From NCBI GenBank assembly GCA_028688905.1, contig JAQTXH010000001.1, forward strand, positions 62,001-126,000: a stretch of DNA of 64,000 nucleotides, written 5' to 3'. Positions 12,388-28,227 of this stretch are shown piece after piece. The DNA is from Acidiphilium sp. (lineage in GTDB: Bacteria > Pseudomonadota > Alphaproteobacteria > Acetobacterales > Acetobacteraceae). The stretch's first letter is position 1; each line of letters opens with the position of its first letter. A program made the position numbers and the translations under genes. The notes beneath the pieces were generated by a model, which made no database searches, was not told the DNA's origin, and was given only the letters and a program-made list of their open reading frames with translations.

Positions 12388-12409
12388 GACGGTCTCCAGA
12401 CATGCGAAA

Positions 12410-12889: not shown

Positions 12890-12899
12890 GGCCGCCTCC

Positions 12900-13379
12900 T
12901 CAGAAGGTGTGGGTGTAGTTTTCGGAGGCGGTGTAGCGCTCGTTGTAATCGAGCGTGATCGTCTCCTCCTCGACGTCGAAGATGACGTCGCCATAAGCGC
13001 CGTCGTTATTCTCCCAGCCGCAATGGGTCTTTTCGAGAACGTCATAGGCCAGGCGCTCGACGGCTTCAGCGATGCTGATGGACGAACGCTTCGGCTCGGT
13101 CTGGTCCCAGACGGCCTCGGCCATTTCGATGGCTGCGCCAGGCATGGTGACGGCATCGTCGCCGGCCCGAGCTTCCACATTCTCGATCTGGCCGGAGTCG
13201 CCATAGCCGTCGAAGCTGACGACGACGCGGGTGACGCCGGCGAGCGCCAGTGCATTGAGCAGCGCGGCTTTGTTGAGGGTGAAAAGCTCGGCCTCGAGTT
13301 TGGCTTGGGCAGCCGCCTTGATCTCCCAATCGGAAAGCTGCGGAGCGGACTTGGACGTGGTGTCGGGTATGTCGGTCAT
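12900..13379 (-). CDS. DUF6878 family protein
   Basis: Starts MTDIPDTTSKSAPQLSDWEI and contains the pattern VTRVVVSFDGYGDSGQIENV with a C-terminal VIFDVEEETITLDYNERYT, matching DUF6878. At 159 residues it is full length. The protein is acidic, with a central helix-rich part. It is the upstream partner of the DUF6915 gene (10 bp apart) and is preceded by the third copy of the leader hairpin. Function unknown. Confidence 0.8.
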   Translation of the reverse strand: MTDIPDTTSKSAPQLSDWEIKAAAQAKLEAELFTLNKAALLNALALAGVTRVVVSFDGYGDSGQIENVEARAGDDAVTMPGAAIEMAEAVWDQTEPKRSSISIAEAVERLAYDVLEKTHCGWENNDGAYGDVIFDVEEETITLDYNERYTASENYTHTF

Positions 13380-13401
13380 GACGGTCTCCTGAAACGAAAA
13401 C

Positions 13402-13421
13402 GCCCGGCGCGAAGGCCGGGC
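13402..13421 (-). promoter_or_regulatory. Leader hairpin C, copy 3
   Basis: GCCCGGC and GCCGGGC, perfect 7-bp stem with a 6-nt loop, placed 22 nt before the start codon of the DUF6878 gene, with flanks resembling the other two copies (CGAAAAC, CGGGTCGGTTG). Confidence 0.5.
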
Positions 13422-13478
13422 GGTCGGGTCGGTTGAAGGGAAAAGACGCGGGACGGCCGAAGCCGCCCCGCGCGCGAG

Positions 13479-15608
13479 CTACTCGGCCGCGATCACCTGC
13501 GGCGCCTCGGCCTCGGCTTCTTCGTCTTCGGCGAGGAATTCGGGCAACGCCTCACCGTCGTCTTCGGCTTCGGTGGTTTCGATGGGCGCGTCGTCCGCGG
13601 TGGCGATCCGCAGCGGCTCCGCCAGCCAGCCGCTGTCGGCCAGGAGCCGTTCGGCCTCCTTGGCCATGTCGGCCTTCTTCAGATGGTCGATGAGCTGCGC
13701 CGCCCGCTCGCCCGCGCCTTCCTGCACCGCCTCCAGGATGCGAACCTTGGGCACCCGGCCGAGATAGTTCTCGACGGTCGGCCGCCAGCCGGCCTGCACC
13801 ATGTCGAGATCGACGGCCTGGGCGAGGCGATCGGCCTCGGCGATGCGCTGCTCGACCGTGTGGGACGAGACGCCCGCGCCGTAGCGGTCGCCCTTCTCGT
13901 AGAGCGCATTGACGCCGAAGGAGGCGCAATGGGCGAAGAGCGCCGCCTGGTCCTCGCCCTTGAGGGTGGTGAGCCAGTCCCAGAGATCGGCCTTGTCCTT
14001 GGGCAGCCGCTCTTCCCAGCCCTTGTGACGCGCGTCGATGGCCTTCGCCGCGGGCGTGTCCTTGAGCCCCTGTGCCTGCACCGGGAAGCTGGCGCTGCGG
14101 ACCGACACTTCCAACGCCGTCCCGTAGGAGAAATAGCGGGAGAAGACGTCGAGGCAGAACTTGTGTAGCACGGCCTGGAACGCGACGGCGGGCGTGCTCG
14201 CCAGCTTGTCCCGCAGCGCCAGCGTCCGCTCTGCGGTCAGCTCGGTCACGAGGCGGTCCGGGAGAGGCTTCAGGTCCTCGTCGTCCTCGTCCTCCGGTCC
14301 GGCGACCTGTCCGCCGATGGTGATGACGGCGCGCTGAACGACAGGCGCATCGGGATCGGCGCCGGTCGCCCGAGCCGTTGCGGGATCGGTGTCGCCGTCC
14401 TGCTCCGGCTCGCCCACGGGCGCTTCATCGTCCGGACGGACGTAACCACGGTCGACCGACAGCGCGCCTTCGGCATCGATGCTGACGAAGACGCCGGCGC
14501 GGGCGATGTCGGCAGGATCATAGGTGACGGGCCAATCGTCGAAGGCGGCGAGCGCCGCCTCGATCTCGCCGAGGCGTTCGTCCACTTCGTCCGGCAGCTC
14601 GTCGGCGCCGTCATACTCCTCCTCCAGTTTGGCATATTCCGCCTTCAGCGCGTCGATCGTCGCCTGCTCCTCGCTGGCGAGGTCGATGGCGGCGCCCTCC
14701 AGTTCGCGCAGGCCGCGGGTGTGCCCGTAGGGGAAGTCGATGGCGACCTCGATCCACTTCCAGCCCTCGGCGGCGATCGTCTCCGCCTCGGTCTTCAGCT
14801 TCTCGGCGACCAGGCCGTCCAGCAGCGCCATGTCTTCGAGCCAGCCGCCATCGTCGGACTGGAACAGGTCGCGCAGCACCACGCCGCCGGCGGCCTCATA
14901 GGCGTCGAGACCGACGAACACCGCTCGCCGGTCGGAGGCGCGCACCGTCTTCTCCGTCAGCATGCGGCGGATCTGGTAGGGCTCCTTCTGCCAACTGTCC
15001 TTGACCGACGTCCAGACCTGCACCTGGCGCGCATGGTCGGTGGTGACGGTGAAGGCCATGAGCTGCTCGAGCGACATGCCGTCCTCGGCGTAGACGTCCA
15101 GCAAGGCCGGCGCGACGGACGCCAAGCGCAGGCGCTGCTTCACGACGTTCACGCCGACGAAGAACGCCGCGGCGATGTCCTCCTCGGAGCGCCCCTTCTC
15201 ACGCAAGGCCTGGAAGGCGCGGAACTGATCGAGGGGATGCAGCGGCGCACGCTGGATATTCTCGGCTAGCGAGTCATCCTCGCCGAGGATATCGGTGCCC
15301 GGATCGCGGACCACGCACGGAACGGGCGCGGTCTTCGCCAGGCGCTTCTGTTTCACCAGCAGCTCGAGCGCCCGATAGCGCCGGCCGCCGGCCGGAATCT
15401 CGAACATTCCGGTCTCGGCGCCCTCGGCGTCGAGGACCGGCCGGACATTGAGACCCTGGAGCAGCGTGCGCCGGGCGATGTCCTCGGCCAGCTCCTCGAT
15501 CGAGACGCCGGCCTTCACGCGCCGGACGTTGGACTGGCTGAGCACCAGCTTGTTGAAGGGAATGTCGCGCGAGGACGACAGAGTGATCTTCTGAACCGCA
15601 GTAGCCAT
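13479..15608 (-). CDS. ParB-like nuclease/partition domain protein (long form)
   Basis: The 709-residue protein has an N-terminal ParB domain: LVLSQSNVRRVKAGVSIEEL, the GGRRYRAL box, and ENIQRAPLHPLDQF, followed by a helix-turn-helix (EEDIAAAFFVGVNVVKQRLRLAS). The remainder is long and acidic, ending in a glutamate/alanine-rich tail. Canonical ParB is about 280-300 residues, so this is the enlarged type found in alphaproteobacterial plasmids and ICEs. No parA is adjacent, so a role in DNA binding or gene control is as likely as partitioning. Its start codon directly follows a leader hairpin whose base touches the ribosome site. Confidence 0.88.
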   Translation of the reverse strand: MATAVQKITLSSSRDIPFNKLVLSQSNVRRVKAGVSIEELAEDIARRTLLQGLNVRPVLDAEGAETGMFEIPAGGRRYRALELLVKQKRLAKTAPVPCVVRDPGTDILGEDDSLAENIQRAPLHPLDQFRAFQALREKGRSEEDIAAAFFVGVNVVKQRLRLASVAPALLDVYAEDGMSLEQLMAFTVTTDHARQVQVWTSVKDSWQKEPYQIRRMLTEKTVRASDRRAVFVGLDAYEAAGGVVLRDLFQSDDGGWLEDMALLDGLVAEKLKTEAETIAAEGWKWIEVAIDFPYGHTRGLRELEGAAIDLASEEQATIDALKAEYAKLEEEYDGADELPDEVDERLGEIEAALAAFDDWPVTYDPADIARAGVFVSIDAEGALSVDRGYVRPDDEAPVGEPEQDGDTDPATARATGADPDAPVVQRAVITIGGQVAGPEDEDDEDLKPLPDRLVTELTAERTLALRDKLASTPAVAFQAVLHKFCLDVFSRYFSYGTALEVSVRSASFPVQAQGLKDTPAAKAIDARHKGWEERLPKDKADLWDWLTTLKGEDQAALFAHCASFGVNALYEKGDRYGAGVSSHTVEQRIAEADRLAQAVDLDMVQAGWRPTVENYLGRVPKVRILEAVQEGAGERAAQLIDHLKKADMAKEAERLLADSGWLAEPLRIATADDAPIETTEAEDDGEALPEFLAEDEEAEAEAPQVIAAE

Positions 15609-15620
15609 TGGGGTATTCTC

Positions 15621-15693
15621 CGCGGCGGGCGGCCGAGAGACTCTCTCTCGACCTCCAACCCGCCACGAAGACCGGCGCAGCCCTCTTCCTCTC
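15621..15693 (-). ncRNA. Leader element B, copy 2 (parB-like gene leader)
   Basis: On the minus strand CGTGGCGGG pairs with CCCGCCGCG (9 bp, one G-U) and encloses a perfect 7-bp hairpin (CGAGAGA/TCTCTCG, 15634-15650). The base of the outer stem runs straight into GGAGA, the ribosome site, 5-12 nt before the ATG. The box GCCCTCTTCCTCTC lies at 15680-15693. The ardC-like leader has the same design with a compensating base-pair change (A-U for G-C) in the outer stem. Confidence 0.6.
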
Positions 15694-15775
15694 GGGCCGC
15701 CGCGCGGGGCCTCCCTTAAAGAGCCGCTCCATTGCTAAGATGGCGTCAGGGCACGTTCATCGGGGATGAAGCGTA

Positions 15776-17029
15776 ATGGCAAAACGGATCATCACGGTCT
15801 TCTATGCTTGGCAGAGCGACCGGGATCAGAAAGGAAATCGACACTTCATCCGTCGCGCTCTCGACGATGCCGCCAAGCGCATCAATGACGATGGTGCCCT
15901 GGCGGTTGAGATTAAGGTCGATGCGGATACGGAGGGCGTCCTAGGCACGCCCCCGGTGACTGAAACGATCCTCAAAAAGATTGGCGCATCGGACATTTTC
16001 GTGCCGGACCTGACCTTCATCGCGCAAACCGACACGGGTAAGCTGACCCCCAACCCCAACGTCATGGCCGAATATGGCTACGCGCTTCGCGCGCTGACGT
16101 TCGAGGCGATGATGCCGGTCATGAACACACATTATGGCGCGCCGACTGAGTTGCCGTTCGACCTGGGCCATGTTCGCCATCCCACCCAGTATGATTTGCC
16201 CCCGGCTAGCCCCGACGGAGCACGGCGTGCAGCCCGGGCCGTCCTCTCCGAAAAGTTGGAAGCCATAATGAGGTTGATGGCCCAGAATATTCTCAGCAAA
16301 GCGCGCACGGATAATCCGTTTGTGCCCATCGCGCCGGTGCGGCCGCCCGCCTTTTTCTTTCAGCCCAACGATGTGCTGCTGAATTTCGGCTATCCCGGCG
16401 AGCAGGAGATGCGGTTCAAAAGAAATCGGGCCATCTTTCTGCGGCTCTATCCGACCTATGCGGATCAGCCACGTGTCGGCTTGAGCCGGGCAATTGAGGT
16501 CGCCCAGCGATTGATGCCGCTGCAGCGCGTGATCACGTCCCCACACAACCGCAACGACTGGGGCGCTATCAATCTCCAGCCACATGGCGACGGTATTACA
16601 AGCTTCACCCAGATCTTCGAGACCGGCGAACTTTGGGGCGCGAGCGAAGAGCCGTTCAGAACGGGCAACCCGTCATTTGTCGCGGCGATCGGCGCGGAAA
16701 AGGCGTTCGTGGCGGCTTTGGAGAACCACCGTCTTGTTTACGAGAGAGAACTCAAGCTCCGCCCGCCCTTTACCGTCGAGTTCGGAGCAGTCGGCCTGAC
16801 GGATCAGCACCTGCTTGTGCCCAGTGTCGAATTTCCTTCGGGGGAATATGCGGGACCGATCCGAAAGGACAGCTTTTGCCGGTCGTTCCAACTAGGCAGC
16901 TTCGACGCGACGGAGTGGACGTCCGCCCTCAGAGATTTTCTCATCGATTTCTATGACCTGGCGGCGGTGGACCGGTCGAAGGTTCTCACGGACGCCATCG
17001 TCGCGGCGAACCAACTGCCCCCGCGCTAA
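15776..17029 (+). CDS. TIR-like nucleotide-binding domain protein (putative defence effector)
   Basis: The 417-residue protein begins MAKRIITVFYAWQSDRDQKGN. Residues 1 to about 165 look like a TIR-like fold: the first strand with FYAWQSD, a strand DIFVPDLTFI, and NPNVMAEYGYALRAL, where the glutamate is in the position of the TIR NADase catalytic residue. The roughly 250-residue C-terminal part is not recognised. It is the only plus-strand gene between two minus-strand backbone genes, so it looks like inserted cargo. By analogy with TIR-domain phage-defence effectors it may cleave NAD or bind a nucleotide signal; the sensor could be the C-terminal part. The start is the first ATG after a GATGAAGCG ribosome site. 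Confidence 0.65.
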   Translation: MAKRIITVFYAWQSDRDQKGNRHFIRRALDDAAKRINDDGALAVEIKVDADTEGVLGTPPVTETILKKIGASDIFVPDLTFIAQTDTGKLTPNPNVMAEYGYALRALTFEAMMPVMNTHYGAPTELPFDLGHVRHPTQYDLPPASPDGARRAARAVLSEKLEAIMRLMAQNILSKARTDNPFVPIAPVRPPAFFFQPNDVLLNFGYPGEQEMRFKRNRAIFLRLYPTYADQPRVGLSRAIEVAQRLMPLQRVITSPHNRNDWGAINLQPHGDGITSFTQIFETGELWGASEEPFRTGNPSFVAAIGAEKAFVAALENHRLVYERELKLRPPFTVEFGAVGLTDQHLLVPSVEFPSGEYAGPIRKDSFCRSFQLGSFDATEWTSALRDFLIDFYDLAAVDRSKVLTDAIVAANQLPPR

Positions 17030-17033
17030 CCCG

Positions 17034-17990
17034 TCACGCCGCCTCCCGTTCACTATCAGCCTCGCCGAGGACGCGGTCGTGATCGGGCAGAAAGCCCAGG
17101 ATCCAGTCGGCTGCCTTGCTGGCCTGGGAGGCTGCGCGCACGACGGCGCGGTTGTCCTCGCGCAGCACCTCCAGCCAGGAGCCGATATAGTCCGCGTGCC
17201 GCACAGTCGGAACGATGCCGAGCGACGCGCAGCAGAACGCGGCGTTCATCTCCGCCACCAATTCCTCGAATGCATACTTCTTGCTGCCGAACGTGCCGCC
17301 CAGGTCACGGCCGAGACGGGACGGATGGCCGCTGGCGTGCCCCAGCTCGTGCAGAGCCGTGCGGTGCCAGTTGATCGGCTCGAAATAGGCCTGCGGCGGC
17401 GGGACCATCACGAAGTCGGGCCCCGGCGCATAGAAGGCGCGATTGCCGCCGATGCGGAAGTCGACGCCGGTCGCGCGGATTAGCGCCTCGACCCTGGGCT
17501 CGATCAGGCCCGGCAGCGGCGGTGGTGCAACGGCCGCAACCTCGGCCGGCAGGTTTTCGCATTGGGCGGCATTGAAGACGGTGAACCGCTTCAGGAATGG
17601 GATCGCAGCCGCTTCCTCGCCGGTCTCGCGGGCGCGTCGCTTCTCGTCGTCGGGCACGAAGCGGTCGGCATAGACCACGGTGGTGCCGTGCTCGCCCTTG
17701 CGCACGTTGCCGCCGAGCGAGAGCGCCTGGCGAAAGGTGAGCCAGCTCTGAGCGGGGAAGCCGTGCTCGATGACGGCGCCCCAAAGGATCAGTACGTTGA
17801 TCCCGGAATACTGCCGGCCGGTGGCTGCATTCCTCGGCATAGCGAGCGACGCCTTCGCCGCGGCCGTTCCCCAGGGTTGGACCCAGGGCACACGGCCGGC
17901 CTCCAGCTCGGCGATGATCTTGCCGGTGATTTCGTCATAGAGGCTCGCCCGGTCCTGGCCGGCGCGAGCGGGAGCGGTCTTGCTGGACAT
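17034..17990 (-). CDS. ArdC-like antirestriction protein with zinc-peptidase domain
   Basis: The 318-residue protein has the ArdC N-terminal single-stranded-DNA-binding region (VPWVQPW at about 35-41, NAATGRQYSGINVLILW at 54-70) and a C-terminal zincin domain with HELGH at 214-218 and a downstream glutamate in FEELVAEMN. ArdC proteins enter the recipient with the transferred strand and protect it from restriction. Length and motifs are complete. The ATG is preceded by GGAGA at the base of a leader hairpin. It is notable that the same element encodes restriction enzymes immediately downstream on the other strand. Confidence 0.92.
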   Translation of the reverse strand: MSSKTAPARAGQDRASLYDEITGKIIAELEAGRVPWVQPWGTAAAKASLAMPRNAATGRQYSGINVLILWGAVIEHGFPAQSWLTFRQALSLGGNVRKGEHGTTVVYADRFVPDDEKRRARETGEEAAAIPFLKRFTVFNAAQCENLPAEVAAVAPPPLPGLIEPRVEALIRATGVDFRIGGNRAFYAPGPDFVMVPPPQAYFEPINWHRTALHELGHASGHPSRLGRDLGGTFGSKKYAFEELVAEMNAAFCCASLGIVPTVRHADYIGSWLEVLREDNRAVVRAASQASKAADWILGFLPDHDRVLGEADSEREAA

Positions 17991-18331
17991 CGCGGATCTC
18001 CGCGACGGGCGCCGGAGGCCTCTCCTCCAGCCCTCAACCCGTCACGGCGAACCCGGTCCGCACTCTCACTCTAAAGGGGGCGTTGCGGGGACCTCCCCGC
18101 AGAAGGGGGTGTGTCGGCGACACTGGCGTCGACCAGGGGGAAGGCTTTCCCCCCAAGAGGCTCACCTCGGATCAACGACCACTCTGGTTCCAACGATCAC
18201 GTCTTTGATTTCCAATTATCATGCTCCACGGCTCCAAATTCCTGGACTTCCGCTCTACCGGTGAATGTTCTTTATTTGTTCACGTCGGCGCGCTACATTG
18301 CCGATTGAAGAATTAACGGTTTTGCTGCAAG
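17991..18331. other. 341-bp divergent region: ardC leader and promoter area of the defence block
   Basis: The left third holds leader element B of the ardC-like gene. A GC hairpin (GGGGGAAGG...CCCCC, about 18137-18156) lies in the middle. The right third is AT-richer and probably carries the promoter of the plus-strand defence genes, but I cannot identify -35/-10 boxes with confidence. I see no gene. Confidence 0.5.
18001..18072 (-). ncRNA. Leader element B, copy 3 (ardC-like gene leader)
   Basis: CGTGACGGG pairs with CCCGTCGCG over 9 bp (one G-U) on the minus strand, enclosing GGAGG/CCTCC (18014-18028). The outer stem abuts GGAGA before the ATG, as in the parB-like leader. Compared with that leader one G-C pair is replaced by A-U, a compensating change. 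The purine box (GCACTCTCACTCT in plus-strand sense, 18060-18072) is also shared. Confidence 0.6.
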
Positions 18332-18340
18332 GTGGCACTG

Positions 18341-18370
18341 TGCCGCGGAATGCCGCGGATTGCTGCGGAG
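18341..18370. promoter_or_regulatory. Three 10-bp tandem repeats containing CCGCGG
   Basis: TGCCGCGGAA, TGCCGCGGAT and TGCTGCGGAG follow each other without gaps. The first two contain CCGCGG, the site cut by Eco29kI, whose homologue is encoded 1.5 kb downstream. The repeats sit at the start of the first gene of the restriction-modification unit. One-turn spacing fits an operator for the ribbon-helix-helix protein, or a methylation-sensitive control site. Confidence 0.5.
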
Positions 18371-18580
18371 GCCGGTTTGGGCAAGGATGGCCGCGACGCG
18401 GAACGGGTGACCACGACCCTGACGCGTAAGCAGAAGGCCGAACTGGATCGTCTCGCAAAGGCGCAGGGCGTGAAGGTGGCTTGGCTAGTGCGGCGGGCTG
18501 TCGAGAGATTCTTGGAAGAAGCTGCGGGCGGGCCGTTGTTACCGCTGGACCTGAATGGGGGCGAAGATGCAAAGCGCTGA
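18350..18580 (+). CDS. Ribbon-helix-helix (CopG-like) protein, candidate controller
   Basis: The conserved part is VTTTLTRKQKAELDRLAKAQ followed by GVKVAWLVRRAVERFLEEA, the strand-helix-helix of a CopG/Arc-type DNA-binding dimer. About 76 residues from the ATG chosen; a GTG at 18332 or one near 18407 are alternatives, because no start has a clear ribosome site and the upstream part overlaps the CCGCGG repeats. The end overlaps the methyltransferase start by 14 nt. The location in front of a restriction-modification pair suggests it acts as its transcriptional controller, in place of the usual C protein. Confidence 0.65.
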   Translation: MPRIAAEAGLGKDGRDAERVTTTLTRKQKAELDRLAKAQGVKVAWLVRRAVERFLEEAAGGPLLPLDLNGGEDAKR

Positions 18581-19736
18581 ACTCTTCGCTGGCTGTGGGG
18601 GTCTAGCCCTTGGAATGTCCCATGCGGGGTTTCGACACCAGCATATGGCGGAGTTTGACCAGGACGCGGTCGCGACGGTCTTGCACAACAAGGCAAAGGG
18701 CATTGAGCACGTCCGGGACTGGCCGATGGGTCTGCAGGATGTCCGAGAGATCGACTGGAAGAAGCTGACCTCCCTTGATCTCGTTTCTGGCGGACCTCCC
18801 TGTCAGCCATTTGGAATTGGCGGGAAAAAGCATGGCCAGGACGACCATCGTGATATGTGGCCCGAGGCCATTCGAGCGGTACGAGAGGCAAAACCGCGGC
18901 TGATCTTGTTCGAGAATGTGAGGAATCTCGCTGGTCCCCGCTTCCGCCCCTATCTTGAGTGGATCGTCTCGAATCTTGAGCGACCAGGAATGATCCGCAG
19001 ACTAGAAGAGTCGCATGCCGAGCATCGCGCGCGGCTGGCGACCTCCAAGAGTCGCAAGGATTACAAGGTTGTTTGGCAGCTTGTGAACGCCGCCGATTTT
19101 GGCGCGGCTCAAATCAGGCACCGCGTTCTGATCTTTGGGATCAGAAGCGATCTCGATGTCGTTCCGACGCCGATGCCGCCGACCCATTCGCGTGATCGAC
19201 TTCTCTGGGAGCAATATGTCACCGGGGAATATTGGGCTCGCCATGGCCTGAAGAGGCGCCGCACCCCCATTCTTCAGCAGGACCACGCGCGCATTGAACG
19301 ATTGAAACGGGCGGACATAGAGCCGGCTGGAGCTCCATGGGTGACGGTCCGGGATGTGTTGAAGGGTCTCGGCGAACCGAACGGCAAGCGCAACCATGTC
19401 CTGCAGATCGGCGCGCGAATTTACCCGGGTCACACTGGAAGTCCCCTGGACCTTCCCGCGAAGGCTCTGAAGGCGGGTGATCATGGTGTTCCCGGCGGCG
19501 AGAATATGATGGTGCGTGACGACGGGTCGGTTCGCTACTTCACGACCCGAGAGGCCGCGCGACTGGTGGGCTTGCCGGACGACTACGAGTTTCCGCGGTC
19601 GTGGACGGAGAGCATGCGACAGCTTGGAAACGCGGTTCCAGCCCCCCTCGGAGCCGCCGCTGGTCGTTGGTTGGCCGCGCAGGTCGGCGGGGGAAAGGCC
19701 CTCGGCGGCCTAGCTTCCACACGTCGTGCGGCGTAG
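18567..19736 (+). CDS. DNA (cytosine-5) methyltransferase of an Eco29kI-like R-M system
   Basis: 389 residues with the ordered C5 motifs: I ELFAGCGGLALGM, IV GGPPCQPFG with the catalytic cysteine at about 79, VI LFENVRNLAG, VIII AAQIRHRVLIFG, and X QLGNAVPAPLG. It is followed by an Eco29kI-like GIY-YIG endonuclease gene, whose partner methyltransferase in the known system modifies CCGCGG. The specificity here is inferred from the neighbour. The ATG at 18567 has GGGGGCGAAG upstream. Confidence 0.92.
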   Translation: MQSAELFAGCGGLALGMSHAGFRHQHMAEFDQDAVATVLHNKAKGIEHVRDWPMGLQDVREIDWKKLTSLDLVSGGPPCQPFGIGGKKHGQDDHRDMWPEAIRAVREAKPRLILFENVRNLAGPRFRPYLEWIVSNLERPGMIRRLEESHAEHRARLATSKSRKDYKVVWQLVNAADFGAAQIRHRVLIFGIRSDLDVVPTPMPPTHSRDRLLWEQYVTGEYWARHGLKRRRTPILQQDHARIERLKRADIEPAGAPWVTVRDVLKGLGEPNGKRNHVLQIGARIYPGHTGSPLDLPAKALKAGDHGVPGGENMMVRDDGSVRYFTTREAARLVGLPDDYEFPRSWTESMRQLGNAVPAPLGAAAGRWLAAQVGGGKALGGLASTRRAA

Positions 19737-19811
19737 ATTTGTCCTTTATTTCAGCCGGAGGGCGAGTCGCGGCCGTTAGACCTCGTTTCGGCTACCGAGG
19801 GGGTTTAGTGG

Positions 19812-20759
19812 ATGGCGCTCGCACCAGATCGAGCCGCGATTAAGGCACTTGAGGACGCGCTTGCCGCTGTGCTCTCGGCGGCCGGTAGCAATCCTCCCCA
19901 AGCGGTTGTTCGTCGAATTCGCGAGGGTTTAGCGGCACACGCCAACGCGGTGGAAGCGGCGCGTTCGTCCACCGATCCAATTCGCATGCCCCGCGCGACG
20001 TTTGATCCCGCCGATCCAAAAGCGATCGGCCGAATGGTCTCGATCGCGCTCCTTGCTCAGCCTCTCGTGGCGTTGGCCGATGTTCGACCGGCCTATGGTT
20101 CGGGTGTCTATGCGATCTATTATCGGGGCGATCATCCGCTATATGGCGGCATCTCAGGATCAGAGACGCCGATCTACGTCGGTAAGGCTGATCCCGCGAA
20201 TGATGATGCCAGCACCACGCGCGAGCAGGGCCCGAAACTTACGGGGCGTTTATTGGAGCACGCGGGCACGATCGGCACCGCGGAAGGCTACGCTGACAAG
20301 CTTCCGTCCCATCTATCAGCCATAAGGCTCGCGGACTTCGTTTGCCGCCGACTTGTCTGCGCCACGAATGCCCAACTGGTCGCGGAAAAACATCTCATTC
20401 GGACCTTCTGGCCGATCTGGAACTCGGAGACCAAAGCCTGTTGGGGAATGAGCAAGCATGGCGACGCGGCGACCACGCGAGCCAACAAGCGTTCTCCGTG
20501 GGATGTCGTGCATCCTGGACGACTCTGGGCATTGGATGAGCGGCTGGCGGACTCGCTGATGCCGGATGAGATCGCCAAGCGAATCGCCGCAACGCTGGAA
20601 CGGGTGCCGGCGCGACAGGATCATGCCGCGCTACTGGAGGAGATGTTGGCCGGCTTTCGTCAGGACGATGCCGTTTCAGTGGTTCCCGAGGTTCCGCCAG
20701 TGGGTGAGGACGTCGCGGGTCCCGAGCCGGATGAGGCTGGCGGTGTCGACGACGAATGA
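19812..20759 (+). CDS. Eco29kI-like GIY-YIG restriction endonuclease
   Basis: The 315-residue protein carries a GIY-YIG nuclease core: GVYAIYY at 98-104, IYVGKA at 121-126, the arginine helix KLTGRLLEHAG, and a glutamate in AEKHLIRTFWPIWN, all in the order of Eco29kI. Eco29kI is about 214 residues and cuts CCGCGG; this protein has roughly 90 extra residues at the N-terminus and a proline/acidic C-terminal tail. The start has GAGGGGG upstream. The next gene (Vsr) begins inside its end. Specificity is predicted, not shown. Confidence 0.85.
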   Translation: MALAPDRAAIKALEDALAAVLSAAGSNPPQAVVRRIREGLAAHANAVEAARSSTDPIRMPRATFDPADPKAIGRMVSIALLAQPLVALADVRPAYGSGVYAIYYRGDHPLYGGISGSETPIYVGKADPANDDASTTREQGPKLTGRLLEHAGTIGTAEGYADKLPSHLSAIRLADFVCRRLVCATNAQLVAEKHLIRTFWPIWNSETKACWGMSKHGDAATTRANKRSPWDVVHPGRLWALDERLADSLMPDEIAKRIAATLERVPARQDHAALLEEMLAGFRQDDAVSVVPEVPPVGEDVAGPEPDEAGGVDDE

Positions 20760-21219
20760 AACGGATGCCGCCAGAAGCGCGCAGATGTCCCGCATACGAG
20801 GGCGTGACACCAAGCCGGAAATCCGCGTGCGTCGGGCGCTTCACGCGGCGGGATTGCGATACCGCCTTCATGCGAAGGATTTGCCCGGAAAGCCCGACCT
20901 TGTCTTTCGGGGCCGGCGGATAGCACTGTTCGTCCACGGGTGTTTCTGGCACCAGCATCCGGATCCGGATTGCAAGCTCTCTCGAATGCCGAAGTCGAAG
21001 CTCGATTTCTGGCGCCCGAAACTTGAGGGCAACAGGTTACGCGACGAAAAAACACGATCCGCGCTGGAAACGAATGGTTGGACGGTGGTCGAGGTTTGGG
21101 AGTGCGAGACCAAACCTGACCACTTGCGGCGACTGGTTGCTAGACTTCAGACGATAAACCCGCCGCGCGCGGCGGAAGTTAAATCCCGATCCATAGTTGG
21201 GGCAAAGGCGGGGAAATGA
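20743..21219 (+). CDS. vsr: Very short patch repair (Vsr) endonuclease
   Basis: 158 residues from a GTG that overlaps the end of the endonuclease gene by 17 nt and has GAGG about 10 nt upstream. The Vsr core is intact: MSRIRGRDTKPEIRVRRALH, GKPDLVFRGRRIALFVHGCFWHQH with the catalytic aspartate and the zinc-site histidine and cysteine, and WTVVEVWECE. Vsr nicks T-G mismatches that arise when 5-methylcytosine deaminates, so it complements the C5 methyltransferase. In MORC-type restriction systems a Vsr-like nuclease may also act as the cutting subunit. Confidence 0.92.
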   Translation: MSTTNETDAARSAQMSRIRGRDTKPEIRVRRALHAAGLRYRLHAKDLPGKPDLVFRGRRIALFVHGCFWHQHPDPDCKLSRMPKSKLDFWRPKLEGNRLRDEKTRSALETNGWTVVEVWECETKPDHLRRLVARLQTINPPRAAEVKSRSIVGAKAGK

Positions 21220-23561
21220 CTCAGGAACTGGATCTCACACCCGCGCCGCGCGTGCTGCAGATGCTCGGCGAAATCAATCTCGAGCAATGGCGGTGCCTGG
21301 CCGAGCTCATCGATAACTCCATCGATGGCTTCATTGACGCAGCGAGGGCCGGCGCGCCGATCGCACAGCCCGAGATCGCGGTCAGCATACCGACCGCCGA
21401 TACCGAAAACGCGAGGGTGTCCGTCAAGGACAATGGGCCCGGTATGTCTCTGGAGACCTTGGAGAACGCGCTTCGGGCGGGCTGGTCGGGAAACGATCCG
21501 CTGTCGAAGCTCGGCCTTTTTGGGATGGGCTTCAATATCGCCACCGCGCGCCTTGGCATCGTGACCGAGGTCTGGACAAGCCGGCGGGGCGATCCGGAAC
21601 AGGTTGGCGTTCGCATTGATCTTGAGGAGCTTAGGGCCTCTGGGAACTACAAGGTCCCACGCCAGACGCGTGCCAAGACGAATCATGAGGACCACGGCAC
21701 GGAGATTGTCGTGACGCGGCTGAAGCCGGAGCAGCGAGCCTATCTGGCGCGAGCGAACAACCGCGCAACGATCAAGAAGCATTTGGCCAAGACCTATTCG
21801 TCGCTTCTCTCCAATTCGGAGGCGGGGGCGATCCGGTTGATGCTGGGCGGCGCGCGGGTCACGCCACTCCGCCCCTGCGTCTGGGACGCCAGCCGGTCGG
21901 TCGAGCTGCCTGATGGCACCACCGTTAGTGCCGTAGAGCAGTTCGATGTCGCGCTCGCGCCGAGGCGATATTGCGAGCATTGCATGCGGACGTTGGCGAG
22001 CGATCAAGAGCAGTGCCCCACCGGAAGCGCTCACTGCGCGATCGTCGAGACCCCGCGCAGAGTCAAGGGCTGGGTCGGCATCCAGAGATACTTGGACAAG
22101 ACGGACTTCGGAATCGACTTCATCAGAAATGGTCGAAAGATTGAAATTGGGACGAAGGATCTTTTCATCTGGAACGACGGGGAGACTCAGGAGGTCGAGT
22201 ATCCGATCGATGATCCGCGAAGCCGAGGTCGCTTCATAGGAGAGATCCACCTCGACCATTGCCAGGTGAGCTACACTAAGAATCGCTTCGAGCGAGACGA
22301 TCCGGCATGGAACGAGATGGTCCGGGTGGTTCGGGGCGAGGGCCCGTTACGGCCCAACACCGCGCGCCAGAAGGGTTTCGATGGCAATCAGACCCCGCTG
22401 TACAAGCTGTTTCAAGCTTTCCGCCGCACCAGCCCACAAGGCAAGAATGGTCTGTGGTCTAGGATCATGGTCGTTCAGGACAACGATCGCGCCCAGCAAA
22501 TGGCGGGCGCGTTCGCGAACGCCGACGCCGAGTATCTAACGGACGAGCGCTGGTGGCAGCTCGTCGAAGAGCAGGACGCGAAGATTCTCGGCGACACGCC
22601 TGGCGGTGGCGACGGCGCGGCGATACCTCCGGGGTTTCTTGGAGGCGATTCTGGTACGGAGGGCGGTGGCGATGGTGGTGGTGCCCCACCCAGCGGCGAG
22701 CAGCCTCCCGCCGCATCCCCGGTAACGCCCGAGCCGGCCCCCGCGCGGCGACCGATATTCGAGCTCACCCGCAAGTATGTTCATCCCACGTACCGCGCGG
22801 AGTTCGATGTCGAGGCTTTCGCCGTCGATCCAGCTGATCCACAATTGCCGGCGGGGCAGCCGTGGGCGGTCCGCTTGGACAACGTCGCGACACGCACCTA
22901 TTCGTATCTCGTCGATACGGCGCACGACGTGTTTCGATCCTCGACGATGACTCCCCTCGACGCTTTGCTCGTCGATCTGACTTACCGAACAATCGAGTTT
23001 CTCCGCGGGCATAGCCAGGATGCCACGCCGGCGGGTGTCCTCGCGGATTTTCGCGCCGAGTATTGTGGCGACACTCGACTGGACGAGCAGGAAATCATCG
23101 CGCTAGCGGGCAATATCCTAACCGATATCTGCCGTTCCGTGGCCGGCCTTATTAACGGACAATCCGCCGAGGCGATGTATGGCGAACTGACGGACCGCGA
23201 GAAGGAAGGAATCGCTCGCCGGATGGCTGGTCGCGGTGTCGCAGATCCTCGAGCGCTCATCGGGGACGGCCGGTACTGGGATTATGCCGATGGAGGCACG
23301 GTTCGCCGCTTCTTCCAGAGACATCCCGAGCTATTTCTCGACGGGAAGTATTGGGAGGATGTGTACGCCGCTCTTGATTTCGGCGCGCCCGATGTCACGA
23401 ACGACGCGAAGGCGGCAACGGTCGCGCGCTATGACGCATATCTGGGGGACGCCATATGGCTCGCTGATCAAACGCCGGCGGACTTGGCAAGGGCCTCGCG
23501 AGACACCGTGATCCGAGCGACTTGTTCGCTTCGTCTTCTCAGACCGGACGTCATGATGTGA
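21216..23561 (+). CDS. MORC/MutL-like GHKL ATPase of a restriction system
   Basis: 781 residues. The GHKL ATPase has the N box AELIDNSIDG (E30, N34), the G1 box KDNGPGM (71-77) and the G2 box LGLFGMGF (99-106). A second domain carries a four-cysteine zinc site (CEHC at 253-256, C267, C274), and the middle contains a Gly/Pro-rich linker (about 470-510). MORC-like ATPases encoded beside C5 methyltransferases, Vsr and helicases were described by Iyer, Abhiman and Aravind (2008) as mobile restriction systems. The start overlaps vsr by 4 nt (ATGA), and its end overlaps the helicase gene by 4 nt. Confidence 0.88.
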   Translation: MTQELDLTPAPRVLQMLGEINLEQWRCLAELIDNSIDGFIDAARAGAPIAQPEIAVSIPTADTENARVSVKDNGPGMSLETLENALRAGWSGNDPLSKLGLFGMGFNIATARLGIVTEVWTSRRGDPEQVGVRIDLEELRASGNYKVPRQTRAKTNHEDHGTEIVVTRLKPEQRAYLARANNRATIKKHLAKTYSSLLSNSEAGAIRLMLGGARVTPLRPCVWDASRSVELPDGTTVSAVEQFDVALAPRRYCEHCMRTLASDQEQCPTGSAHCAIVETPRRVKGWVGIQRYLDKTDFGIDFIRNGRKIEIGTKDLFIWNDGETQEVEYPIDDPRSRGRFIGEIHLDHCQVSYTKNRFERDDPAWNEMVRVVRGEGPLRPNTARQKGFDGNQTPLYKLFQAFRRTSPQGKNGLWSRIMVVQDNDRAQQMAGAFANADAEYLTDERWWQLVEEQDAKILGDTPGGGDGAAIPPGFLGGDSGTEGGGDGGGAPPSGEQPPAASPVTPEPAPARRPIFELTRKYVHPTYRAEFDVEAFAVDPADPQLPAGQPWAVRLDNVATRTYSYLVDTAHDVFRSSTMTPLDALLVDLTYRTIEFLRGHSQDATPAGVLADFRAEYCGDTRLDEQEIIALAGNILTDICRSVAGLINGQSAEAMYGELTDREKEGIARRMAGRGVADPRALIGDGRYWDYADGGTVRRFFQRHPELFLDGKYWEDVYAALDFGAPDVTNDAKAATVARYDAYLGDAIWLADQTPADLARASRDTVIRATCSLRLLRPDVMM

Positions 23562-25234
23562 CCGCAGAACCATTCCTCCACACCCAACGGCTGCTACGTG
23601 GGCCATGGCAAGCCTTCGAGCGGGACGTGGCTCGGCTGCTCGTGTGCAACGGTTTTGAGGATGTCAGGCTCATCGGGGGTTCCGGCGACGCGGGCGCCGA
23701 TGTCCTTGGTGTCAAGAATGCCGAGCTATGGGTGATACAGTGCAAGTTCACCACCAACGGATATCCGTCGCCGGCCGCTGTCGATCAGGTCGGCGAAGCG
23801 GCGCGATATTATCAGGCTGATCGAATCTACGTCGCCACGAGCCGTCGCGCTGGGCCCGCGATGCTGGCATCGGTTCGCCGTTGGGCGGCGCTTGGCATCG
23901 AGATCGGTGTTCTTGAGCCGGCGACCCTGCTTGAGATGGCGCGGCGCAGCCCGGAGTATCCGGCCAGCAGACGCGATCTTCGCGACTATCAGCTCGATGC
24001 CGTCGATCGGTTCGTTGGATCCCTGCGCGAAACGGGCCGGGGACAGGTGGTCCTTGCGACGGGACTCGGAAAGACGGTTGTGTTGGCCGAGAGCGTCGCC
24101 CAGCTTTTTCGCGACGAGGCGATACCCGGCGGTCGGGCGCTGGTGCTCGCTGGCACGAGGGAATTGGTCGATCAGCTACAGAGGGCGTTTTGGGACCAGC
24201 TTCCGAAGTGGGTTCCAACCCATCGCTTGATCGGCGGCGAATTTCCCTCGGAATGGAATGGGATCACGTTCGCGACTGTTCAAAGCGCCGTCTCGCGGCT
24301 CGACGCGCTGCCTGACTTTGGGGTCGTCCTGATCGACGAGGCGCACCACGTGGGCTCCGATACCTTCCGCCGGGTAACCGACAAGATGGCTGAGGCGATG
24401 ATCGGCGGCGTCACAGCGACCCCATGGCGGGGCGACGGTTATGACATTGACCACTTGCTGGGCCCGCCGGTCGTGCGAATTGGAATCGCGGAGGGTCTCC
24501 GGAGGGGGTTTCTTTGCGAGGCGGATTACCGCTTGCTCGCGGACAACATCGATTGGTCTTTCGTGCGATCGCACTCGCGCAACAGCTATTCGATCACACA
24601 GCTGAACAAGCTGTTGCTGCTCCCAACGCGCGACGAGGAAGCGGCGCGCGCGATCCGGGACACCTTCGACAAGGAGTCTCGACGCTCGGCGATAATCTTC
24701 TGTTCGTCGGTTACGCACGCGAAAAGCTTCGCGGCCATGCTGAGGCTGTTCGGTTTTCGCGCCGAGCCAATCACTGGCGACATGACGCCTCGGGAACGTG
24801 ATCGCACGATGGTGGCCTTTCGTAAGGGCTCGCTAGACGTTGTGACGACCCGTGACTTGTTCAACGAGGGAGTCGACGTCCCCGACGTTGACATGATCGT
24901 TTTCATGCGGGTCACGCACAGCAGGCGGATCTTCGTGCAGCAACTGGGCCGAGGGCTACGCATCAGCCCCAGGAAAAAGAAGGTTGTCGTTCTCGACTTC
25001 GTTAGCGACCTGCGGCGCCTCGCCGAGGTCGTCGAACTTGAGAAAGCCGTCCGGGGCGATGTCGAGCGGCTGCGTCTGCCTGGCGTCATCCAATTCCGTG
25101 ACGAGGGTGCCGGGAGCTTCATGCTGGATTGGATGAAGGACCAAGCCGATTTATTCACCCGCGAGGGAGATCCGACACTAGAGCTGCCCGCTTTCGATTT
25201 CCCGGCCCCTCATAACAGAGGCGGCATTCAATGA
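23558..25234 (+). CDS. Mrr-type nuclease fused to DEAD/DEAH helicase
   Basis: 558 residues from a GTG overlapping the stop of the ATPase gene (GTGA). The N-terminal 120 residues are an Mrr-like nuclease: FERDVARLLVCNGFEDV, GDAGADV (43-49) and QCK (61-63). Then a superfamily 2 helicase: ATGLGKT at 167-173, DEAH at 260-263, the TATPWRGDG motif, and QQLGRGLRIS as motif VI. The fusion would couple DNA translocation to cleavage, making it the probable motor and nuclease of the MORC-type complex. It overlaps the next gene by 4 nt. Confidence 0.9.
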   Translation: MTAEPFLHTQRLLRGPWQAFERDVARLLVCNGFEDVRLIGGSGDAGADVLGVKNAELWVIQCKFTTNGYPSPAAVDQVGEAARYYQADRIYVATSRRAGPAMLASVRRWAALGIEIGVLEPATLLEMARRSPEYPASRRDLRDYQLDAVDRFVGSLRETGRGQVVLATGLGKTVVLAESVAQLFRDEAIPGGRALVLAGTRELVDQLQRAFWDQLPKWVPTHRLIGGEFPSEWNGITFATVQSAVSRLDALPDFGVVLIDEAHHVGSDTFRRVTDKMAEAMIGGVTATPWRGDGYDIDHLLGPPVVRIGIAEGLRRGFLCEADYRLLADNIDWSFVRSHSRNSYSITQLNKLLLLPTRDEEAARAIRDTFDKESRRSAIIFCSSVTHAKSFAAMLRLFGFRAEPITGDMTPRERDRTMVAFRKGSLDVVTTRDLFNEGVDVPDVDMIVFMRVTHSRRIFVQQLGRGLRISPRKKKVVVLDFVSDLRRLAEVVELEKAVRGDVERLRLPGVIQFRDEGAGSFMLDWMKDQADLFTREGDPTLELPAFDFPAPHNRGGIQ

Positions 25235-25761
25235 CGGCCATTCCAACAACGGTACGTGATGCGTTGAGGGACAGGCTCTGGGCACAGTGCGATGACCTCG
25301 GATGGATGTCGCTACCCGACACAGAACGCGCCCGTTACTACGAGCTTTGGACGCGCGATTCCTCGATCGGCGGACAACTGGCCCATGTGATGGATGCGCG
25401 AAAGGTACGCGTCTACATCAAGGATTCCTTGGTGAAGCCCTATGTCCGGGCGCGGCTATCCCTGAACGAAGCCGAGGTCTGGCGATTACTCGGACTCACG
25501 AGCGGGGACCGGGCGGTCCACATCTATATCAAGCCTCACGGTCGCAGGACCGAGGATGGCCGAGTGATCGGATGGGGCCGCAGCCGAGATTGGAAATCTG
25601 TCTTAATGGCGGTTTTCGAGCGCGGTCGGGCGCAGAGTTCCTTTTCGTCGTTCGGTGTTGTCCTGTTGGAGAGCGGGAAGACCGAGGCCGAACGATCCCG
25701 TGGACTTGTTCGAGAAGCCGCGCAGCGACTTGGTATCGAAAAACTAGCCTGGCTGGAGTGA
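25231..25761 (+). CDS. Unknown protein in the defence operon (176 aa)
   Basis: Starts MTAIPTTVRDALRDRLWAQCDDLGWMSLPDTER, then a likely alpha/beta body with VRVYIKDSLVKPYVRARLS, DRAVHIYIKPHGRRTEDGRVIGWGRSRDW and a final helix GLVREAAQRLGIEKLAWLE. The basic strand-rich centre could bind nucleic acid. The ATG overlaps the helicase stop by 4 nt, so it is co-translated and probably a partner of that protein. I cannot place it in a family. Confidence 0.8.
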   Translation: MTAIPTTVRDALRDRLWAQCDDLGWMSLPDTERARYYELWTRDSSIGGQLAHVMDARKVRVYIKDSLVKPYVRARLSLNEAEVWRLLGLTSGDRAVHIYIKPHGRRTEDGRVIGWGRSRDWKSVLMAVFERGRAQSSFSSFGVVLLESGKTEAERSRGLVREAAQRLGIEKLAWLE

Positions 25762-25763
25762 TC

Positions 25764-26906
25764 ATGAGGGAGAAGTATCCGGGCTGGTATCCAAAGTCGG
25801 CGGCGGAGGCCTCAGCTTTGTGGGACAACGCTATATTTGTCCCCGATGCGAATGTTCTGCTGCACTGCCTCCGGCATCCCGCCGCAGTACGCGAAGAGCT
25901 TCTGCGACTGTTCGATGCGCTAAAGGAATCGTTGTGGATTCCGTACCAGGTTGGGCTTGAGTTTCATCGCAATCGTCTGGATGTCGAACTGGGCGCGCAG
26001 GATGCCTATGAGGCATTGATAAAGGATCAGGAGGCGGTCCTTGAGAAAGCGCGCGAGAGGCTGCGTCAGCTCCGCGCCCACCCGACGATCAGCGTCGCTA
26101 AGGAACTCGCCGCGCTAGATATGTTCGCCGGAGATTTTCGCGGTCGGATGATCGCGGCGCAGGCGGCGCACCCAGTTCAGGAGATCGCCGACGCCGTCGC
26201 TAAGCTCACACAGCTTTTGAACGGACGAATTGGTGACAAGTGGAAGCCCGAGCAACTCGCTGCGGTGAAGAAAGAAGGCGAGGATCGCTATTCGAAGAAG
26301 ATCCCACCTGGATACAAGGACGCTAAGAAGGACAGTGGGGAGTTCGACAAATTCGGCGATCTCATTATCTGGAAAGACATGATCGCGAAGGCCAAATCCG
26401 ACAAGCGGCCTATAATATTTATATCCGACGACGCCAAGGAAGACTGGTGGTGGATTCACAAAGGTCGGAAGCTCGGCCCTCGCCCGGAGTTGATCGAGGA
26501 GTTTCGAGCAGGGTCAGACCAAGATTTTCACATTTATGAGTTCGGCCAGTTCTTGCGGTTCGCGGCGGAGCGCTTCCCAGAAATCCAGGCGGGTGTCGAT
26601 CAGGTGGAGAAAAGCCTGCAGGACGACGAGCGTGCTCGTCGGAGACAGAGCGAGGTAGCGGAGGCAATCGAGACGCGAGCAAAGGTTCGAGAGCTTGAGG
26701 ATGAACGAGATCAGATCATTGCCGTCTTGTCGGGCGCGCCTGGTGCATCGATGCCGGTCGCGCCGGTCGATAGGGTCGCCCTCAGAACACGGCTGGGCGA
26801 GCTTACTGCGGAACTGGAAGCTCACCAGCAACGACCAGACGAGGCGGTCTTAGCTGCTCCAGGCGGCGATGATTTCGCCGCAGTAGCGGAGGAACGCACA
26901 TCATGA
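25764..26906 (+). CDS. PIN-like nuclease domain protein (DUF4935 type)
   Basis: 380 residues. The PIN-like acidic positions are visible: FVPDANVLLHCL (D28), GLEFHRNR, FGDLIIWKDMI and IIFISDDAKEDWW. A long charged helical region (about 270-340, VEKSLQDDERARRRQSEVAE) looks like a coiled coil. The ATG at 25764 follows GGAG by 7 nt and lies 2 bp after the preceding stop. PIN-like nucleases of this type are frequent in defence neighbourhoods and are expected to cut RNA, so it may be an abortive-infection arm of the system. Confidence 0.82.
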   Translation: MREKYPGWYPKSAAEASALWDNAIFVPDANVLLHCLRHPAAVREELLRLFDALKESLWIPYQVGLEFHRNRLDVELGAQDAYEALIKDQEAVLEKARERLRQLRAHPTISVAKELAALDMFAGDFRGRMIAAQAAHPVQEIADAVAKLTQLLNGRIGDKWKPEQLAAVKKEGEDRYSKKIPPGYKDAKKDSGEFDKFGDLIIWKDMIAKAKSDKRPIIFISDDAKEDWWWIHKGRKLGPRPELIEEFRAGSDQDFHIYEFGQFLRFAAERFPEIQAGVDQVEKSLQDDERARRRQSEVAEAIETRAKVRELEDERDQIIAVLSGAPGASMPVAPVDRVALRTRLGELTAELEAHQQRPDEAVLAAPGGDDFAAVAEERTS

Positions 26907-26966
26907 GCCGCGCTATGATCGCTTGTGCCGTCGATTCCGGTGGGTTCGATCGATAGGAAGCCAGCC

Positions 26967-27689
26967 ATGCACAAGATCGAGGAATTCGTCGACGAACGGC
27001 AGAAGTCGTGGTGCATCCACTGCGCGAGGCCGCTCGCGGGCCTTGAAACCAACGAGGATCATGTCCCGTCAAAGGGCCTCTTGGCGAAGCCGCGCCCACA
27101 CCACCTGCCGATCGTGATAATCTGCAAAGAATGCAACACCGGCTTTTCGTTGGATGAGCAGTACGTGGTGACGTTTCTGAGTTGTGTCCTGGCGGGTTCT
27201 ACCGACCCTGAGAAGCAGTCGAACTCGAGCGCTGCACGAGCCCTTGTCGATAGCACTGCGCTGCGCGCGCGGATCGAGCGATCGCGGACCGAGTATGTGA
27301 CGCACGGTGGAGAGACGCGCGTCCTATGGAAACCGGATTCGAGCCGCGTCGAGCGAGTGGTGCTGAAGAATGCGCGTGGGCACGCTTATTTCGAGTACGG
27401 CGAACCGATGTTGGATGCTCCGGCCCACATGTTGATTGTCCCGCTGGAATGTATGACGACGGAGCAGCGCGATGACTTTGAGGGGCTAAGCGACCAAGGA
27501 AGCCTCGCGGCCTGGCCGGAGGTCGGGAGCCGCATGCTGACACGCCTAATTACTGGCGAGGACACGGAAGGCGAATGGGTCGTCGTCCAAGAAGGAATCT
27601 ACCGCTATTCCGTACAGCAGGATGGTGGTCTGCGGGTGCGGTCCGTCCTGTCGGAATACCTAGCCACCGAAGTTCGTTGGGGGCATTAG
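26967..27689 (+). CDS. HNH-type endonuclease
   Basis: 240 residues. The N-terminal zinc-anchored HNH motif is clear: WCIHCARPL (C16, C19), NEDHVPS (D31, H32) and IICKECNTGF (C53, C56). The rest (about 160 residues) has no family likeness that I recognise. AGGAAG precedes the ATG. It is the last gene of the plus-strand defence block, 60 bp after the PIN-like gene, and may be a nuclease subunit or an independent anti-phage protein. Confidence 0.8.
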   Translation: MHKIEEFVDERQKSWCIHCARPLAGLETNEDHVPSKGLLAKPRPHHLPIVIICKECNTGFSLDEQYVVTFLSCVLAGSTDPEKQSNSSAARALVDSTALRARIERSRTEYVTHGGETRVLWKPDSSRVERVVLKNARGHAYFEYGEPMLDAPAHMLIVPLECMTTEQRDDFEGLSDQGSLAAWPEVGSRMLTRLITGEDTEGEWVVVQEGIYRYSVQQDGGLRVRSVLSEYLATEVRWGH

Positions 27690-27858: not shown

Positions 27859-27939
<81 letters not shown>

Positions 27940-28186: not shown

Positions 28187-28227
28187 CCTTCGGAGGGCAA
28201 CGCTCTATCCAGCTGAACTACAGGTCC
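28187..28227 (-). pseudogene. 5' half of the native tRNA-Arg(CCG), cut in the anticodon arm (att junction)
   Basis: On the minus strand it reads GGACCTGTAGTTCAGCTGGA and continues through the D arm to the anticodon stem TTGCC, loop CTCCGAA and GGC, after which pairing with the stem fails. The 3' half is missing. A break at the anticodon loop is the usual crossover position for tyrosine-recombinase integration into tRNA genes. It is taken as the right chromosomal junction of the element. Confidence 0.75.

Follow-up and report, generated by a model that had tools for sequence, protein, structure and literature searches.

The question raised by a 64,000-nt stretch of Acidiphilium sp. contig JAQTXH010000001.1 (the whole of which is called the window here) is whether the nine plus-strand open reading frames (ORFs) lying between positions 18332 and 27689 make up one system, several systems or a chance assembly. 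This block encodes, in order, a ribbon-helix-helix (RHH) protein, a C5 cytosine methyltransferase (MTase), an Eco29kI-like GIY-YIG nuclease (GIY), a Vsr-type endonuclease, a MORC-family ATPase, an Mrr nuclease domain fused to a helicase, an uncharacterised 176-aa protein (U176), a PIN_8 nuclease (PIN) and an HNH-like protein (Table 1). The same nine head-to-tail genes, with identical coordinates, had been described in an earlier reading of the DNA made without database searches (the sequence-only reading). Its family assignments were upheld when all nine proteins were compared with Pfam, PADLOC and NCBIfam (six of the nine also with PHROGs), with two corrections, which concern the start of the RHH gene and the weakness of the HNH match. 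With a probability of about 0.5, we interpret the block as a two-armed restriction–modification (R-M) system on mobile DNA, in which Eco29kI-like cutting and an ATP-driven MORC/Mrr-helicase/U176 arm would be served by one shared MTase.

Recurrence of the block and exchange of its parts

Scanning of genome contigs with a MORC alignment identified 192 relatives. The best 80 of these 192, which were not dereplicated, were taken as relative loci (designated by L numbers), and their ORFs were scanned with profiles built from each of the nine genes in the block. A locus was considered complete when no less than 9 kb of sequence was available on both sides (n=54), and 75 MORC loci had enough downstream DNA (at least 2.6 kb) for the following genes to be assessed; L001–L015 were left out of trees and counts. 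Judged by profile scores, three sets of loci appeared to be near-copies (L030/L039/L060, L028/L055 and L038/L049).

The order RHH–MTase–GIY–Vsr–MORC–helicase–U176–PIN, on one strand, was found in 12 of the 80 loci. The eight-gene block is not a chance assembly, because the order and orientation of its genes are preserved in these loci, which span at least seven families and include the apparent near-copies L030, L039 and L060, the last of them disrupted. The MORC, Mrr-helicase and U176 genes (the triad) were near-inseparable, occurring in this order in 71 of the 80 loci and being followed by PIN in 24. Downstream of MORC, 74 of the 75 loci carried the helicase and 70 carried both the helicase and U176 (the misses being L036, L061, L066, L077 and L081), whilst among the 54 complete loci the MTase was present in 54, the helicase in 53 and U176 in 53. 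The sequence-only reading had suggested a comparison of gene neighbourhoods and had extended the group beyond the helicase to U176, PIN and HNH. In this comparison the R-M pair, the MORC group and PIN recurred together in the 12 loci and were not found only apart, and the controlled R-M pair followed by the Vsr–MORC–Mrr-helicase group proved to be a recurrent arrangement. U176 and PIN were also recurrent, but an HNH homologue was detected in only 3 of the 54 complete loci, and HNH was therefore rejected as a member of the conserved unit.

Tight coupling of the ATPase, helicase and U176 genes, as seen in the window, was conserved across loci. Adjacent MORC and helicase genes overlapped or were no more than 20 bp apart in 89 of 90 pairs (36 with an overlap of exactly 4 nt), as did helicase and U176 genes in 79 of 79 pairs (56 with exactly 4 nt); larger overlaps are upper bounds, since starts were set as the longest frame. 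Four junctions in the window overlap by at least 4 nt, the number that had been claimed: RHH/MTase (14 or 26 nt), Vsr/MORC (4 nt), helicase/U176 (4 nt) and MORC/helicase (4 nt with the GTG start at 23558, 40 nt with a TTG start). Two further overlaps depend on the start chosen, namely GIY/Vsr (17 nt with Vsr GTG 20743) and U176/PIN (4 nt with PIN GTG 25758), giving up to six.

Sequence identities revealed that the two halves of the block have changed partners. The Herbaspirillum locus L042 was close to the window in MORC (91% identical), helicase (95%), U176 (89%), PIN (86%) and Vsr (72%), but distant in MTase (48%) and GIY (36%), and it possessed no RHH gene. The opposite pattern was found in L026, L027, L030 and L043, with 75–80% identity for MTase and 83–88% for GIY, compared with 65–66% for MORC and 63–66% for U176; their helicases (84–85%) did not follow this split. 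Exchange of partners thus occurs between the R-M pair and the genes that follow it, with a break near the GIY/Vsr junction. In phylogenetic trees from which near-identical loci and short fragments were left out (91 rows for MTase, 90 for MORC; GIY labels lump strong Eco29kI-like proteins and weaker relatives), the window MTase grouped with L053 and with an MTase from a Xanthomonas citri plasmid (support 100/100). This plasmid, one of five such Xanthomonas records and the only one whose genes were viewed, carries RHH–MTase–Eco29kI genes without MORC, and its nuclease is 57.9% identical to that of the window over 78% of the query. Since the MORC group and the R-M pair are also found separately and swap partners, their combination represents an assembly of exchangeable cassettes. 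The block recurs on plasmids and chromosomes, and the contexts of the loci included plasmids and viral-collection contigs.

Such exchange is also what would be seen if independent defence genes (an Eco29kI-type R-M pair, MORC–helicase–U176 with Vsr, and PIN) were parked together and linked by co-mobility only, which is the strongest rival to the two-armed reading. The Xanthomonas cassette without MORC, the differing histories of MTase and MORC, the sporadic HNH gene and the 61 plasmid records with PIN_8 matches (among the 20 records listed, 2 were also in the MORC list) all fit co-mobility. The eight-gene order in 12 loci does not, and pure co-travel is spoken against by the conserved junctions, by the fusions of PIN_8 with U176 and by a single MTase recognition signature that stays with the triad despite the swaps (both described below). 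We consider independent co-travelling systems unlikely, though a serious alternative.

Table 1. Coordinates (window positions) and supporting evidence for the block and adjoining features
Feature	Position	Strand	Evidence
Candidate promoter, TTGAAG – 17 nt – CAAGGT	18305..18333	+	By-eye alignment of 12 loci, comparative inference
Operator-like array, three 10-bp-spaced repeats CCGCGG/CCGCGG/CTGCGG	18343..18368	+	Conserved in the window and 11 other loci
Ribbon-helix-helix regulator	18377..18580	+	RHH_1 1.3e-6; conserved start context
C5 cytosine methyltransferase, Eco29kI-type recognition region	18567..19736 (alternative start 18555)	+	PF00145 DNA_methylase 2.1e-52
Eco29kI-like GIY-YIG restriction endonuclease	19812..20759	+	PF09517 RE_Eco29kI 5.9e-27
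Vsr-type endonuclease	20743..21219 (GTG 20743 or ATG 20785)	+	Vsr 2.1e-29; TIGR00632 1e-40; motif residues present
MORC-family GHKL ATPase, conserved cysteines, uncharacterised C-terminal region	21216..23561	+	HATPase_c_3 5e-12
Mrr-type nuclease domain fused to SF2 helicase	23558..25234	+	Mrr_cat 8.5e-11; ResIII 8.5e-23; Helicase_C 7.4e-19
U176, uncharacterised 176-aa protein	25231..25761	+	No Pfam, PADLOC, NCBIfam or PHROGs match
PIN_8 nuclease	25764..26906 (alternative GTG 25758)	+	PF18476 4.2e-55; acidic motifs kept
HNH-like protein, occasional neighbour	26925..27689	+	HNH_5 0.013, below its cut-off
tRNA-Arg(ccg), possible integration landmark	27859..27935	-	Adjoins block

The methyltransferase signature and the repeat array

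The MTases of 53 of the 54 complete loci shared the signature KAGxHG(V/T)(P/A/S)GGE, the sole miss being the broken MTase of L060, and it was absent from 30 control C5 MTases (at least 300 aa). Alignment revealed the same signature in a Salmonella plasmid MTase whose gene adjoins that of an Eco29kI-family nuclease. Among 102 MTase ORFs that were 300 aa or longer (L016–L120 plus the window, including near-copies and two unrelated MTases), a first, stricter motif was present in 69 and absent from 33; after loosening it was found in 89, and the 13 misses included distant viral and archaeal loci. M.Eco29kI is described as methylating the second C of CCGCGG, and this position is the predicted target of the window MTase because of the shared recognition region and of the array described below. 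The constancy of the signature across the complete loci suggests that the triad, too, may depend on the CCGCGG mark. A second C5 methylase domain was encoded elsewhere in the window, at residues 6–376 of an 806-aa protein (47803–50223, minus strand) beside a mechanosensitive channel gene; the C-terminal half of this protein was without domain assignment.

Immediately 5′ of the RHH gene lies an array of CCGCGG-type repeats. The gene probably starts at TTG 18377 and not at GTG 18332, too far upstream, as had been assumed previously, because the context xTG-GGN-AAR-GAY-GG is conserved in 12 window-type loci (window included) and the DNA preceding it is this conserved array; the DNA further upstream differs between them. 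At least two intact CCGCGG sites 10 bp apart were present in 11 of the 12 arrays, and L036 had two sites 20 bp apart. The core pattern CCGCGGNNNGCCGCGG had one match in the window's own 3.41-Mb genome, none in reverse and none in the control, and a longer array pattern had no match in 100 shuffles of the window. Across the 80 loci, 20 pairs of CCGCGG sites were spaced by 10 bp and 9 by 20 bp, compared with 0 to 4 at other spacings up to 60 bp; the arrays accounted for this excess. A decayed repeat was found in 6 of the 12 arrays, five of which read CTGCGG or CCGCAG, as loss (deamination) of a methylated second C of CCGCGG would give; L025 does not fit. The array appears operator-like, and its CCGCGG sites are what the MTase encoded next to it is predicted to recognise.

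By eye, a candidate promoter can be made out that would place the array at the transcription start: all 12 loci have a TTG upstream (extended to TTGA in 10) and, beyond a spacer of 17 nt (16 nt in L027), either CAnnnT or TAnnnT. A 20-mer array pattern matched two viral contigs (L127 and L128); no block genes were found in the part of these contigs that was searched, and the matches probably represent chance or another use. Upstream of RHH in L035, L040, L062 and L068 a different shared repeat was seen by eye (GTGGTGTAA-GTGGTGCA type); these loci belong to another subtype, and the repeat is perhaps their own operator.

Nucleases, the triad and PIN_8

The GIY-YIG protein of the window possesses residues that align with Y49, Y76, R104, H108, E142 and N154 of R.Eco29kI. 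Such a nuclease was present in 30 of the 54 complete loci, comprising 23 strong Eco29kI-like proteins and seven weaker GIY-YIG relatives. In 22 complete loci MTase, Vsr, helicase and U176 were present but no GIY was found in the DNA searched (up to 10 kb on each side), which leaves the triad as the evident restriction arm there.

Vsr was detected in 50 of the 54 complete loci. This frequency, together with the CTGCGG decay in the arrays, would suit a very-short-patch-repair machine in which Vsr, a MutL-like MORC and the helicase repair deaminated CCGCGG with no restriction arm, in parallel with the Dcm–Vsr–MutL–UvrD pathway drawn by Iyer et al. 2008 (PMC2292703). The triad persists without Vsr in the other four loci, however, the Mrr nuclease residues are intact, a PIN effector is present and occurrence is infrequent and scattered (2 of 398 genomes of a phylum draw and 1 of 395 of an order draw had U176, with the genome of the window itself counted in each), so that we regard a pure repair function as very unlikely.

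The model of the MORC protein (pLDDT 84.5, pTM 0.58) gave MORC3, MORC2, SMCHD1 and MORC4 as best matches, and a search of PDB sequences with the MORC profile gave three matches at E ≤ 0.001, two to MORC3 and one to MORC4. The conserved MORC motifs were retained across members; in the S5 motif (GhXhhpXXRhl) the window sequence GIDFIRNGRKI fits at 10 of 11 positions, and the lysine replaces the hydrophobic residue in 94 of 104 members. In the helicase fusion Mrr_cat occupies residues 15–100, and D, QxK, GKT and DEAH were near-invariant among homologues. The helicase of the first type of MORC operon of Iyer et al. is Rad25-like; for the window helicase, NCBIfam gave a better match to RadD (3.6e-35) than to XPB (1.3e-20) or rad25 (4.6e-8), all of them below their cut-offs, and its best PADLOC match was a type IV restriction model that covered the helicase part only.

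The latter match and the Mrr_cat domain raise the possibility of a type IV-like arm, in which Mrr-helicase and MORC attack foreign-modified phage DNA whilst the MTase/Eco29kI pair handles unmodified DNA, the two arms then covering both kinds of phage. A C5 MTase was found in all 54 complete loci, which means that a 5mC-cutting arm would have to spare the CCGCGG of its host, and the same recognition signature recurred in 53 of them; both observations make this alternative quite unlikely.

No match to U176 was found in the four databases, and 60 relatives gave only stray weak matches to Pfam (best 0.0038). Its AF2 model, of high confidence (pLDDT 94, pTM 0.83), is helical towards the N terminus and also has an alpha/beta portion. 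The weak top PDB matches included CDI toxin chains, EcoT38I and FANCM–FAAP24, mixed with unrelated folds; we take 4zqu, 4g6u, EcoT38I, FANCM–FAAP24 and RPB5 to be restriction-type folds. In the family of 60 sequences G47, K64 and W115 were invariant, with basic or aromatic residues frequent among the rest. D109 and D120-x-K122 were not kept across the 60 sequences, at variance with a PD-(D/E)XK assignment, and an active nuclease was rejected as no conserved nuclease motif was found. U176 probably has a non-catalytic role, as a DNA-binding or scaffold protein. All three plasmid records that matched U176 also had MORC, and of four viral-collection loci found by U176 three held MORC–helicase–U176; the fourth, L103, lies near a contig end and retains U176 together with the terminal part of the helicase. 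The other U176-positive genome of the draws contained MORC–helicase–U176 and an MTase.

PIN was present in 22 of the 54 complete loci (RHH in 16), and one proteobacterial-type clade of the MORC tree had PIN in 21 of its 23 rows, the gene being missing from L033, whose contig ends within the helicase, and aberrant in L036. The latter encodes an in-frame MORC–PIN chimera (10001–12712), with helicase and U176 absent. PIN_8, in the sequence-only reading a possible RNA-cutting fallback, is linked to U176, a tie which that reading did not have, because in the actinomycete loci L076 and L091 a second U176 domain lies behind PIN_8 in one protein; a third actinomycete-type PIN protein, in L113, had no U176 match. 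A PIN_8-type protein was also observed on a 5.2-kb Klebsiella plasmid (NZ_CP042487.1, 1172–2083) that was not in the MORC list.

Two proposed arms on one mark, and comparison with known systems

In the two-armed reading, the C5 MTase would mark CCGCGG at the second C, and the Eco29kI-like GIY-YIG nuclease would cut unmarked CCGCGG independently of ATP. The second arm would be an ATP-driven complex, as the sequence-only reading had suggested for ATPase, helicase and U176, with the MORC ATPase closing on DNA as a clamp or loop-holder, the helicase moving DNA, its Mrr domain cutting, and U176 joining the parts as a basic subunit with a structural or DNA-binding function. PIN_8, joined via U176, could be a late RNA- or DNA-cutting effector, and Vsr would repair T:G mismatches arising by deamination of the marked C. 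The RHH protein may repress the operon from the array, and as this carries the MTase's target, methylation could tune operon expression. A bolder version, in which one C5 MTase licenses two unrelated arms at the same site, U176 is a hub that recruits PIN and the promoter array reports the methylation state, is tentative, and we hold it to be rather doubtful.

The weakest links of the two-armed reading are the sharing of the CCGCGG mark by the triad and the role of PIN, and several observations weigh against it. The action of the triad could be unrelated to the methylation site, and Mrr-type nucleases are known chiefly as cutters of modified DNA. No MORC match was found in 50,697 phage records, the U176 fold had no PDB or viral-library match at E ≤ 0.001, and the absence of GIY from 22 loci was judged within 10 kb on each side at most. 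PIN and RHH, with the frequencies given above, are neither of them essential to the core. CCGCGG was depleted in the window (33 sites vs 59 expected), and GGCGCC was even more so (32 vs 82.6), for which reason specific avoidance of CCGCGG was rejected. The array region of L053 is without CCGCGG, having three CTGCGG instead, as is the corresponding region of the Xanthomonas cassette, and a sigma-70 consensus scan found no promoter in 18200–18600 or in the block.

The association of a MORC ATPase, an SF2 helicase-nuclease, a C5 MTase and Vsr was described by Iyer, Abhiman and Aravind in 2008 (PMC2292703), as the sequence-only reading had correctly credited. Their first type of MORC R-M operon has the same MORC ATPase, helicase-fused restriction-fold nuclease, C5 MTase and Vsr, but its description in the text, figures aside, includes no small third partner like U176, Eco29kI nuclease, PIN_8 or operator. 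The window block shares with the Eco29kI type II system, as far as that is described in PMC1952068 and PMC3039593, the six GIY-YIG active-site residues and the MTase signature. It differs from that system in that Vsr, PIN and a putative ATP-dependent arm accompany the R-M pair; on the Eco29kI-family Salmonella plasmid, the gene order is different and no RHH gene is annotated alongside. The mza/Z1 systems (PMC9523054) are likewise described as defence cassettes in which a C5 methyltransferase accompanies MORC-linked proteins, but none of the nine proteins had a Z1 Pfam match, and the MzaB match was weak (PADLOC 0.027; NCBIfam 17.2 bits vs an 850-bit cut-off). Similarly, the paraMORC elements with HEF_HK or Response_reg_2 (PMC8011034) are reported to carry an HATPase_c_3 protein beside a C5 MTase and Vsr, but no Response_reg_2 or HEF_HK Pfam match was found among the nine proteins. 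Nor is the block a type III R-M system, the only MTase among the nine being a C5 enzyme, with no adenine Mod. No description of a MORC–helicase–U176 or Eco29kI–MORC system was found in the literature searched, the coverage of which misses most subscription journals; one paper, PMC3482391, names both Eco29kI and MORC. That literature likewise yielded no account of a near-constant third partner such as U176, of its link with PIN_8, of R-M pairs of one recognition type being exchanged, or of an array of target sites.

Other genes near the block and its relatives were also recorded. Upstream in the window (3358–17990) there is a mobile-element-like region encoding an SLOG protein, DUF7146-Toprim, a strawberry-notch helicase, DUF6915, a ParB-like protein and an ArdC anti-restriction protein, two stretches of which are common to the Xanthobacter locus L023. 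Part of the tRNA-Arg(ccg) gene is repeated imperfectly (35 nt, 91%) at 28187–28221, approximately 250 bp beyond the tRNA; with this copy so close and no other longer than 14 nt seen in the window, a tRNA-bounded island was not supported. On the Deinococcus plasmid pDrdI (L018, 8977–18972) the MORC core is beside CBASS-type genes (nucleotidyltransferase, E2, Mov34/JAB and SAVED), and in L068 (14768–17070) it is followed by matches to the NsnA/NsnB defence proteins. A 233-aa family without assignment was found near MORC in 15 loci (for example L072, 9172–9873, minus strand), on the other strand in most cases viewed. This protein, upstream of MORC, was considered as another nuclease, and the one member tested had no Pfam or PADLOC match.

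Bacterial MORCs have been called poorly understood (PMC8011034), and eukaryotic MORC2 has been described as a DNA compaction machine (PMC12216690). The block is a compact cassette with a near-constant partner, U176, and a likely target site, and it provides a testable example of the role that a bacterial MORC may have in defence. Natural variants that have or lack GIY, Vsr or PIN offer a means of testing what MORC adds to restriction, and the array is a simple test case for methylation-dependent control of an R-M operon.

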